Notes under the pieces: generated by a model
Database searches by the model: none
Told to the model about the DNA's origin: nothing
The model's input: the letters and a program-made list of their open reading frames with translations, nothing else
Translations under genes and position numbers: made by a program
Part shown: positions 43,506 through 51,765 of the stretch, one piece after another
How the letters are laid out: every line of letters begins with the position of its first letter
How positions within the stretch are numbered: position 1 is the first letter of the stretch
NCBI GenBank assembly: GCA_913061235.1
Contig: CAJXTB010000033.1
Span: 1-51,765, forward strand
Direction: 5' to 3'
DNA length: 51,765 nucleotides
From: an uncultured Pseudomonadota bacterium
GTDB taxonomy: Bacteria; Myxococcota_A; UBA796; GCA-2862545

Positions 43506-44096
43506 ATGCCCGTCCTCGCCATGTCCTCCATCGACGACATCCTCACCACCCAGCTAAACGTCGCCTGGGCCGGTGAAAACACAGATGACCCGCCGCGTAT
43601 GGCCTGGTGGAGCGTCAACCTATCAGACCCCCTCGAAGGCGGCGACTTCACCCGCCGTCTCGCCCCGCGAACCTGGGCGTGGGCGGCACTCATCGCTCTT
43701 CGCGAAGCTGGCCGTCGCGCTGACGAAGCGGCCATTGGCACCGAGCGTACATCGGACCGCTTCGCCTCCCTCTTCCGCATCTCCCCGCGCATTGATGAGC
43801 GCTTGGACGACCGCCTCACCGAGCTTCGCAGCAGTGGAAAGCTCCCCCACGAAGCGCTCCCCAACCTGCTCTTTGTGTTGGACGACGGTAACCATGGCTC
43901 CGACTTCGACGCCGACCAGTTCTCCCTGTGGCTAGACGCCATGCCGTCTTCCGAGTCCACCCTCACCACGCACGGGCGCTTGCTCTCGGGCGACGTTCCC
44001 GCAGACCCCGTCCTGCGCACCAACAAGCTCGCCAACCTGTTGTCGGGTGCTCCCGCCGGCAGCTGGCCCTTTCCCCATGCCCGGGTCGGTGAATGA
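43506..44096 (+). CDS. brxE: BREX type 6 component BrxE
   Basis: 196 residues; GGAGG lies six bases before the ATG, and a second ATG five codons later is possible. The sequence fits the BrxE family as I know it: SIDDILTTQLNVAWAGE, then a short Trp-rich phrase (MAWWSVNLSDPLEGG), FTRRLAPRTWAWAALIALREA, and SLFRISPRIDERLDDRL. BrxE is known as the first gene of type 6 BREX loci and is of unclear biochemical role. It overlaps brxA by four bases (ATGA), and brxA-brxB-brxC-pglX follow in the expected order. The family assignment rests on recall and context; a profile search would settle it. Confidence 0.78.
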   Translation: MPVLAMSSIDDILTTQLNVAWAGENTDDPPRMAWWSVNLSDPLEGGDFTRRLAPRTWAWAALIALREAGRRADEAAIGTERTSDRFASLFRISPRIDERLDDRLTELRSSGKLPHEALPNLLFVLDDGNHGSDFDADQFSLWLDAMPSSESTLTTHGRLLSGDVPADPVLRTNKLANLLSGAPAGSWPFPHARVGE

Positions 44097-44827
44097 CGCC
44101 GGTCGAGACCCACATTCACACGCGCTTACTTCGCTTCACCCTTAGGGAAGAGGAGTCGGCGTTGTTCTGGCGGGCTCATGCTGAGGGGCGGCAGCTGACC
44201 CCGGCGTCCGCCTTCGCTGACTACACCTTCGGGCAGAAGTCCGAAGCCTACGTAGAGCGTGCTCTGCGCAACCTACGCATCCGCTTTGATGCCCTTCCAC
44301 CCAGCATAGACGCCCTGCCGCTCTTGGAGCTGACGCGCGCCGAACGGGTGGTGGTCTGCCACGTCCACACCCTACTCACAGACCCTTTTTACCGGTGCTT
44401 CTCCATCTGGCTCACCGAACGCCGCGAGCTGGGCATCCGGGCCATGCACAAAGACGAGGTCACCCGCTGGGTCGAGACCGAACAGCCCGAGCGCTGGGCA
44501 CCGTCTACGCGCATTCAGTGGGCGACGAAGCTGCTGGCCACATCCCGTGAGGCGGGCCTAGTCACTGGCTCCAAGGACCCACGACCCCTCGCAGTTCCCC
44601 ACGTCACAGACACCGTGCTGACCTACGTCCTTCACCTGTTGCGCACGGTTCAGATGGAGCACACCCTGCTCGTCAACCCCTACCTTCGCAGTCTCGGCCT
44701 AGATGGCGGCCTACTCACCGACCGCGTGCGCAACCTTCCAGCCGTGTCCCTGGAGCGCATGGGAGACTTGGTCGACCTGCGCTTTCATCACCCCGACCTG
44801 CTCACCTGGGCCCGGAGTCGTTCATGA
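44093..44827 (+). CDS. brxA: BREX protein BrxA (DUF1819 family)
   Basis: 244 residues, close to the family norm of about 200-250. BrxA proteins are small all-helical DNA-binding proteins needed in many BREX systems. Visible match: an N-terminal HTRLLRFTLREEESALFWRAHAEG, a central THRCYSIW-like stretch (DPFYRCFSIWLTERRELG), and the C-terminal RNLPAVSLERMGDLVDLRFHHPDLLTWA, typical of the DUF1819 end. Overlaps brxE and brxB by four bases on either side (ATGA in each case), so all three are translationally coupled. Confidence 0.88.
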   Translation: MTPVETHIHTRLLRFTLREEESALFWRAHAEGRQLTPASAFADYTFGQKSEAYVERALRNLRIRFDALPPSIDALPLLELTRAERVVVCHVHTLLTDPFYRCFSIWLTERRELGIRAMHKDEVTRWVETEQPERWAPSTRIQWATKLLATSREAGLVTGSKDPRPLAVPHVTDTVLTYVLHLLRTVQMEHTLLVNPYLRSLGLDGGLLTDRVRNLPAVSLERMGDLVDLRFHHPDLLTWARSRS

Positions 44828-49072: not shown

Positions 49073-51765
49073 GCCAAATGACGACCGACGCCAAGAAGGC
49101 CCTGTCCACAACCATTCGCGGCCTACGCGAGCGGCTCCTGACCGACCTAAACGCGTCCCTCGACCGCACCTACCTATTGGCCGTGCCTACCCAGTCCGCC
49201 CAGCTCAATGCACGCGCAAAGATGGGCCGCCAGCGCCTAGAAGGGTGGTGGACCAGCCAGCCAGACCCCGCCCGTGCTCGGCGAGACACCGTGCTGCGTG
49301 TTGCGAGTACCTGGCTCAACCGCTTGGTCCTGCTGCGTGTTCTCGAAGCCCGTGAAGAAGGCCGACGCCCGGTCATCACCGGTGGCTGGCAGTCCAGGGC
49401 GTACAAAGACTTTCGCGAGCTGGCCCCCGCCCTGTGCAAAGACGACAGCCAAGGCATGCAGCCGCTCTTGGACATGGTGTTCGGCGAGCTGGCCCTAGAC
49501 CTTCCCGGTCTGTACGGCCCCATTGACCTGCTCCCCCTCGTTCCCATGCCACCCGCCACCCTGCGCGTGCTCATCGAATCGCTAGATAGCGGCGTTCTAC
49601 AGTCGTGCTGGACAGACGACCTGACCCTCGGCTGGGTGTACCAGTACTGGAACGACCCCGCCCGCGAAGCCCTAGACGCCAAGCTCAACAGCGGCGGAAA
49701 GGTCGAAAACCACGAAATCGCCAGCAAGACGCAGATGTTCACCGAGCGCTACATGGTCGACTGGCTGCTTCAGAACAGCGTCAACCCCCTGTGGCTCGCC
49801 ATCTGCCAGAAGAACGACTGGACCCCAGAGGCCGAGTCCACCGGACTGCTCGACCGCTTAGACGCGCGAAAAGCCAGCTTCCGCAAAGATCGAGAAGACG
49901 GCACCGTCAGCGACACCGCACTCATGCCTCTGTACGACGACGAACATCACTGGGCCTACACCCTGCGCCAGCCCATCCCGCAAGACGCCGTAGACACCGC
50001 ACCCAGCTCCATCCGAGACGTCCGCATTCTCGACCCCGCCTTGGGCTCGGGTCACTTTCTCGTTGTCGCCTTTGACCTATTGGTCTCGCTGTACCACGAA
50101 GAAGCCCGCCACCGCCGCGTTGTAGGCGACCCCGACTGGACCGACACCGCCATTGCCGAGCGCATTGTCTCGCACAACCTCGCCGGCATTGACCTAGACC
50201 CACGCGCCGTTCAAATCGCCGCCGCCTCCCTGTGGCTCAAGGCCCGCCTTGCCGCGCCCAACGTGCGCCCGAGCCGCCTGAACCTGGTGGCTGCAAACCT
50301 GGGCCTTGGTTCGCTCTCAGCAGACGACCGCCAGCGCTTGCTCGACGCCGTCTACAACGAGACCGACCTACCCACAAAGCTCATGGGAGACGTTGTTGAC
50401 GCCCTAGCAGACGCCGACCACCTAGGCAGTCTGCTCCAGGTAGACAGTGCCGTGCGCGACGCTGTCTTTGCCCAGGGTGGCGACGCAGACGCGGACGGGG
50501 GTTCGCAGATTCTGATGTTGGCCTCACGAAAGGGCCTGACCACTGAAGAGGCCGTGAATCACGTACACATGCTGCTTCAGCAGTTCTTGGCCAAGCACAC
50601 CGGAACCGCAGACCTAGGGCTCAGGTTGCACGGCGAGCAGCTGGCTGCCGGTGTGCGCTTTGTCGAGCTGGTTCGGGAAGGGACCTGGGACGTGGTTGTC
50701 GGCAACCCGCCGTACCAGGGCACGTCCAAGATGAAAGACAGCAAATACATCGCTAAGAGGTATCCGAGAGGGAAAGCGGACCTGTACGCAGCGTTCTTGG
50801 AGCGTGGGCTTCAGCTGGTTCGGCCCGGTGGTACCAGTGCGTTGCTGACTATGCGCAGCTGGCTATTCTTGAAGACATATTCGAAACTGCGTGCGAAGCT
50901 ACTTGGTGAATTTGATGTGCGGGCGGTGGGCGATTTTGATCGCGGAGCGTTTGAGGGTGTACCGGACGAAGTAGTAAGTGTTGTGGTGACCGTGTTGCGC
51001 AATCACAAGCCTACATCTCAAGATTCGGTCGCACAAATGCCAACCAATAGAGCAGACCAATCCAGGGATAATGAGAGAACCCACCGGAAACGGGCGGCTA
51101 CACTGGCAGGTGTGGGTATGTATCAATTTGATACGCTGTCATTGAGTGTGGTACCGGAATGGCCCCTAATTTATTGGTGGACCAAGACTCACCACATGCG
51201 TTACCGGAACGTTACGCTCATAAAGGACCAATGTCCTGCATCTAAAGGTATTTGTACCGGTGACGACACCCGCATGACTATGAAAGTATGGGAGGCACCA
51301 GCATCACCCACAGCTTGGCAGCCGATCATAAAAGGGGGCAAGGGAAAGGCCTGGTTTGAGCCGTTTGAAGATGTGGTTCGTTGGGGACGCGAAGGCCTGA
51401 CATTCTCAGTGATGGAAGATAGCGGCCGAGGGACTCGGTTTCAGGGACGGCATCATTACTTCGTTCGGGGGGTTGCATTTTCGATGATTGGTAGCGAGTT
51501 TGCCGCTCGTATTCATCGGACGGTGGGTATTTTCGGCGACAAGGGGAGCTCCGTGTTTCCGTCAGAAATTAACAATACTGTTTGTTCCATGAACACGAGC
51601 GTCTCAAGGTCAATTCTACAAGACCTTAACCCCACGGTGAGTTTTCAAGTTGGTGACGTCAACAGATTGCCGATCTCTGATATTCAGGGATCAGACAAGA
51701 TTATTGAAACAATTGGTCATGCCTTCACCACCCACGAATCCCACCGCGAACCCTCCGTCGAATAC
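49069..51765 (+). CDS. pglX: BREX DNA methyltransferase PglX (C-terminus beyond window)
   Basis: 899 codons are visible and the frame is open at the right edge. PglX adds a methyl group to adenine (N6) at the BREX recognition sequence and marks self DNA. The SAM-binding motif I D-P-A-L-G-S-G-H-F is at ~321-330 and the catalytic N-P-P-Y at ~546-549. The N-terminal ~300 residues are helical, as usual for the family (RERLLTDLNASLDRTYLLA). From ~50,850 on, in the region that should include the target-recognition domain, the DNA becomes A/T-richer and codon use changes: hand counts give 26 of 60 G+C at 51121-51180 against 41 of 60 at 49501-49560. pglZ and later BREX genes must lie outside the window. 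Confidence 0.94.
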   Translation, partial: MSQMTTDAKKALSTTIRGLRERLLTDLNASLDRTYLLAVPTQSAQLNARAKMGRQRLEGWWTSQPDPARARRDTVLRVASTWLNRLVLLRVLEAREEGRRPVITGGWQSRAYKDFRELAPALCKDDSQGMQPLLDMVFGELALDLPGLYGPIDLLPLVPMPPATLRVLIESLDSGVLQSCWTDDLTLGWVYQYWNDPAREALDAKLNSGGKVENHEIASKTQMFTERYMVDWLLQNSVNPLWLAICQKNDWTPEAESTGLLDRLDARKASFRKDREDGTVSDTALMPLYDDEHHWAYTLRQPIPQDAVDTAPSSIRDVRILDPALGSGHFLVVAFDLLVSLYHEEARHRRVVGDPDWTDTAIAERIVSHNLAGIDLDPRAVQIAAASLWLKARLAAPNVRPSRLNLVAANLGLGSLSADDRQRLLDAVYNETDLPTKLMGDVVDALADADHLGSLLQVDSAVRDAVFAQGGDADADGGSQILMLASRKGLTTEEAVNHVHMLLQQFLAKHTGTADLGLRLHGEQLAAGVRFVELVREGTWDVVVGNPPYQGTSKMKDSKYIAKRYPRGKADLYAAFLERGLQLVRPGGTSALLTMRSWLFLKTYSKLRAKLLGEFDVRAVGDFDRGAFEGVPDEVVSVVVTVLRNHKPTSQDSVAQMPTNRADQSRDNERTHRKRAATLAGVGMYQFDTLSLSVVPEWPLIYWWTKTHHMRYRNVTLIKDQCPASKGICTGDDTRMTMKVWEAPASPTAWQPIIKGGKGKAWFEPFEDVVRWGREGLTFSVMEDSGRGTRFQGRHHYFVRGVAFSMIGSEFAARIHRTVGIFGDKGSSVFPSEINNTVCSMNTSVSRSILQDLNPTVSFQVGDVNRLPISDIQGSDKIIETIGHAFTTHESHREPSVEY

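Follow-up and report, generated by a model that had tools for sequence, protein, structure and literature searches.

BREX types 5 and 6 are handled as subtypes of type 1 in a 2026 survey, which lists BrxE without a known function and in which the proposed role of BrxD is that of a loader or activator of the BrxHI helicase (PMC12839542). Phase variation of pglX, together with divergence of the target-recognition domain (TRD), has already been recorded in BREX (PMC11341690, PMC9009780). Herein, we describe a brxE-led locus in G000, a 7.18-Mb genome assembled in 72 contigs. The stretch of DNA analyzed, termed the window, takes up contig C33 from end to end (51,765 bp). A preliminary description had read its right end as a BREX type 6 locus in a Myxococcota-like host. 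Both points stand: the phylum is Myxococcota, and BrxE scores well over the curated BREX-6 cut-off. Very probably, the locus is an anti-phage system of BREX type 6 that is complete but was divided between two contigs during assembly.

Five brxE-led genes at the end of contig C33

Five co-directional genes occupy positions 43506-51765 of the window on the plus strand, in the order brxE-brxA-brxB-brxC-pglX. Adjacent genes overlap by 4 (brxE/brxA), 4 (brxA/brxB), 8 (brxB/brxC) and 4 (brxC/pglX) bases, so that the order and the four- to eight-base overlaps given in the preliminary description are confirmed. The first gene, brxE (43506..44096, plus strand), encodes the hallmark protein of BREX type 6. 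Its 196-aa product matched the BREX-6-specific NCBIfam model NF033448 with 149.1 bits (1.2e-43; cut-off 80) and the PADLOC BrxE model at 4.4e-42, and it contains both of the motif strings that had been quoted for it. The second gene, brxA (44093..44827, plus strand, 244 aa), encodes a putative DNA-binding component. Here the profile evidence was divided: the PADLOC BrxA match was clear (1.1e-71), but the Pfam BrxA model reached only 0.011, under its cut-off. A search of the whole genome with this Pfam model gave no match, but it is uninformative, as the same model was silent in the control genomes too.

The remaining profile checks proposed in the preliminary description, those for BrxE, BrxB and BrxC, all returned matches over cut-off. 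For brxB (44824..45480, plus strand, 218 aa), these were PF08747 (1.2e-16) and, in addition, PADLOC (1e-60). For brxC (45473..49072, plus strand), which encodes a 1199-aa P-loop ATPase with the Walker A motif GFYGSGKS and the Walker B motif VVDE, NF033441 gave 675 bits (2.9e-202; cut-off 400). The last gene, pglX (also brxX; 49069..51765, plus strand), encodes an adenine methyltransferase. Since the window is the whole contig, the gene is truncated by the contig end, where its reading frame is still open after 899 codons. This 5' part covers positions 1-932 of the 1319 positions of the BREX-6 PglX model NF033455, over the cut-off of 900 with 1203.8 bits, and carries the SAM motif DPALGSG and the motif NPPY. 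It shares homology with two solved proteins, PglX of Salmonella (8c45) and BrxX of E. coli (9ewz), in an alignment that spans the methyltransferase and the TRD.

The remaining genes and the type of the locus

The missing 3' part of pglX was located with the BREX-6 PglX model on another contig of the genome, C43 (17,353 bp), where it begins at the very end of the contig on the minus strand. Taken alone, this part scored 872.8 bits with NF033455 (cut-off 900). The genes pglZ, brxD and brxHI, which had been expected downstream, were found on the same contig: PglZ at 9700-6806 (PADLOC 784 bits), BrxD at 6809-5493 (534 bits) and BrxHI at 5492-3381 (853 bits). Searches of the genome gave a single match each for BrxC (C33), PglZ (C43) and BrxE (C33). 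Since these single matches lie on complementary contigs, they most likely belong to one system split by assembly, and we infer that C33 adjoins C43. Against this adjacency, the 5' end of C43 showed no overlap with any other contig. In relatives, the order brxE-A-B-C-pglX-pglZ-brxD-brxHI is found on single contigs (e.g., L047, L052 and L053), and the same eight-gene order is found on single contigs in Corallococcus, Actinomadura and Micromonospora. Catalytic motifs are intact in PglX, BrxC, BrxD and BrxHI, and PglZ retains its VDAMR stretch. Thus, judging from the sequences, the gene set appears complete, with all eight BREX type 6 genes in the expected order.

The pglX 3' part and pglZ are separated on C43 by an insert of 5.7 kb with five ORFs. 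One of the five has Sel1 repeats, one lies on the opposite strand, and none had a defence match. With this insert at the pglX-pglZ junction, transcription as one operon is improbable, unless it continues through the insert.

An assignment to type 1 or type 5 draws on the BrxC and PglZ trees, in which types 5 and 6 sit inside the type-1 clade (PMC12839542). The profile scores argue against it: BrxE is over its cut-off, and PglX, with its 1203 bits for BREX-6, failed both the BREX-1 model (408 bits; cut-off 500) and the BREX-5 model (210 bits; cut-off 900). On gene content these types were already refuted, as BrxD and BrxHI are present and BrxL is absent. The preliminary description had named brxL downstream as one finding that would overturn type 6; a search of the genome for BrxL (PF13337) gave no match, and the same search was positive in two control genomes. 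We consider it extremely improbable that the locus is of type 1 or 5.

Two TRD sequences of pglX in one assembly

The two contigs overlap in the PglX model (1-932 on C33, 684-1316 on C43), but their DNA identity is limited to 45 bases. The TRD on C33 (TRD A; window 51181..51723, plus strand) lies between YWW (aa 702) and FTTHESHREPSVE; its GC3 is 52%, compared with 72% in the 5' part of pglX. The TRD on C43 (TRD B; 17245-16658, minus strand) differs from it. Over 246 overlapping residues TRD A and TRD B are 45-48% identical, which is not far above the mean of 38% between BREX-6 TRDs generally, and both enter the same 45-base 3' arm, identical DNA at window 51721..51765 (plus strand) and C43 16616-16660 (minus strand). 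No third copy of pglX was found in the G000 assembly. The sequenced material thus seems to hold two versions of the pglX TRD. In G078, a metagenome bin of the same order, there are two pglX copies that are 91% identical in the 5' part and have different TRDs; its first contig likewise ends close to the 3' edge of the TRD.

The two TRDs probably reflect ordinary population polymorphism, in that strains with different pglX versions were assembled together. C43 is unbroken from TRD B through the shared 3' half and the insert to pglZ, which agrees with a 3' half present only once, and the G078 bin shows a similar picture. C33, however, runs equally unbroken from the pglX 5' half into TRD A. Alternatively, two pglX genes, or one pglX and a partial copy, could stand in tandem in one chromosome and provide two specificities or a switch. 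Such arrangements exist: L095 (Polyangiaceae) has two full pglX genes with different TRDs between brxC and pglZ, and L168 has a partial second pglX copy that is 93% identical in the 5' part. Yet of 31 loci that cover the region from brxC to pglZ, L095 is the sole clear tandem, and the G000 assembly contains no second pglX 5' half, so we regard tandem copies as somewhat unlikely in G000. It is less likely still that one cell line bears both TRDs and uses them in turn or together, which would make BREX-6 PglX a specificity-switching locus; if this were true, the L095 pair would be a stable form of the same arrangement. Among mixture, tandem copies and switching, the strain mixture is the plainest explanation for G000.

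The tandem genes of L095 (5822-13517 in a Polyangiaceae MAG) are nearly identical in their C-terminal regions. Two further ideas were abandoned. About 40 bases at the 3' edge of the TRD are nearly identical between G000 and G078, and a dedicated DNA recombination site was considered there. It was dropped because, in an analysis of codon-level conservation in 25 pglX genes, the excess at this edge (z 1.7) was below the z of 3.0 reached in a stretch around residue 232. An enrichment of contig breaks in pglX was also dropped: judged informally from gene coordinates, breaks inside brxC seemed about as common.

TRD divergence across BREX type 6

The specificity domains of restriction-modification systems are known to move as modules. 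We compared 61 BREX-6 pglX genes in three parts. Mean pair identity was 0.53 for the N part and likewise for the C part, but 0.38 for the TRD, and pair identities correlated between the N and C parts (0.63) more strongly than between the N part and the TRD (0.23). In close pairs, it was the TRD that had been replaced: identities of the N part, TRD and C part were 0.87/0.49/0.87 in a Pseudanabaena pair and 0.85/0.36/0.86 between Actinomadura craniellae and A. bangladeshensis. The reverse case was seen between Tychonema and Pseudanabaena, with a TRD identity of 0.70 and flanks of 0.57 and 0.62. Moreover, of 47 GC-rich pglX genes, 46 had a lower GC3 in the TRD than in either flank. Replacement of the TRD alone in close pairs, together with the drop in GC3, suggests that the TRD moves as a module; from these comparisons, the TRD of BREX-6 PglX appears to be an exchangeable, cassette-like unit. 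The two TRD versions in the G000 assembly, the one unusual feature of an otherwise ordinary type 6 locus, fit this wider pattern. The comparison leads to a testable prediction: BREX-6 strains that are close relatives should differ in the sites they methylate.

For one locus, L137, a pglX in two pieces, carrying two TRDs, was considered. This reading was rejected, as there is one TRD holding a frameshift, which interrupts pglX (L137 9205-13589).

Genes neighboring BREX loci

Three genes on the plus strand (window 41933..43359) end 146 bases before brxE and lie outside the BREX locus: a HigB-like gene, a helix-turn-helix (HTH) gene and a gene for 159 aa. The HigB-like and HTH genes match PD-Lambda-2 A and B (PADLOC 1.4e-22 and 1.4e-21), and the former also matches Pfam HigB_toxin (9.6e-19). 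At 201 aa, the product of the HTH gene is short, and its match is confined to the first 125 of the 402 model positions; by its sequence the gene seems to be without the peptidase half. The 159-aa gene, directly before brxE, has a weak DUF6941 match; its single-sequence structure model was too poor to be of use (pLDDT 47).

Farther to the left, window 38958-41562 contains an HNH endonuclease gene with a weak likeness, below cut-off, to phosphorothioate-dependent enzymes and, after it, a weakly DrmC-like gene that encodes a PLD nuclease domain. On the minus strand, two genes at 34725-36106 match the candidate defence pair PDC-M15A/PDC-M15B (6.6e-20 and 2e-25), and given this pair the right third of C33 looks like a defence island. 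Three adjacent minus-strand genes at 26149-32006 resemble, by ORF reading, an RND efflux pump, a periplasmic adaptor and an outer-membrane factor.

Many BREX-6 loci have extra genes at the brxC/pglX and pglX/pglZ junctions (L100, L118, L133, L156 and L169). Of ten tested, six encoded AAA_21/AAA_15 ATPases, including AbiL-like, PDC-M38-like and HEC-01-like genes. Extra genes at these junctions, with this share of ATPases, suggest that pglX is flanked by a cargo site on each side in BREX-6 loci.

Predicted BrxE structure and proposed mechanism

An AlphaFold2 model of BrxE, built from an alignment of 51 BrxE sequences, reached a pLDDT of 90.4 and a pTM of 0.90. Foldseek searches of PDB and BFVD and a VIA-align search found no relatives of this fold (best E above 1). 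The model indicates a well conserved, confidently predicted fold, and the absent match is no proof that the fold is new. As a conserved, confident fold without a solved match, BrxE is a reasonable subject for structure work. Our guess is that it may serve as a structural adaptor of the complex.

By analogy with type-1 studies, BrxC, BrxB, PglX and PglZ would form a complex, and BrxA would bind DNA. PglX would methylate short, non-palindromic host sequences on one of the two strands and would spot phage DNA that is unmethylated. Specificity of the system could change by swapping of the PglX TRD. Site-specific adenine methylation and phage exclusion are predicted activities of this locus, whose catalytic motifs are intact.

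Distribution and comparison with known BREX systems

BrxE was over cut-off in 32 of 379 sampled Myxococcota genomes (about 8%). To count type 6 among the least studied types, as the preliminary description did, is fair, but the type is not scarce in this phylum. Loci led by brxE were also found in Cyanobacteria, Planctomycetota, Actinomycetota and purple sulfur bacteria by a BrxC search with an alignment-based profile; the BrxC sequence alone had matched nothing. The locus therefore adds a complete example of a type that is fairly common in Myxococcota, and experiments could turn to cultured carriers, among them Enhygromyxa, Corallococcus, Actinomadura and Micromonospora.

Compared with BREX type 6 as defined by the NCBIfam models, the locus has the same eight genes in the same order, and both BrxE and PglX exceed the cut-offs that are specific to the type. 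It differs in its split over two contigs, in the insert between pglX and pglZ and in the two TRD versions of pglX. With BREX type 1 of E. coli and Salmonella, for which BrxX (9ewz) and PglX (8c45) are solved, it shares BrxA, BrxB, BrxC, PglX and PglZ; unlike type 1, it is without BrxL and has BrxE, BrxD and BrxHI. With BREX type 2 (Pgl) it has BrxD and BrxHI in common; the ORFs of the locus showed no PglW, which is a type-2 component. In other BREX types, pglX is likewise the variable gene, with divergence centered on the TRD (PMC11341690, PMC9009780), and this pattern is documented here for BREX-6 by comparison of pglX genes across the type.
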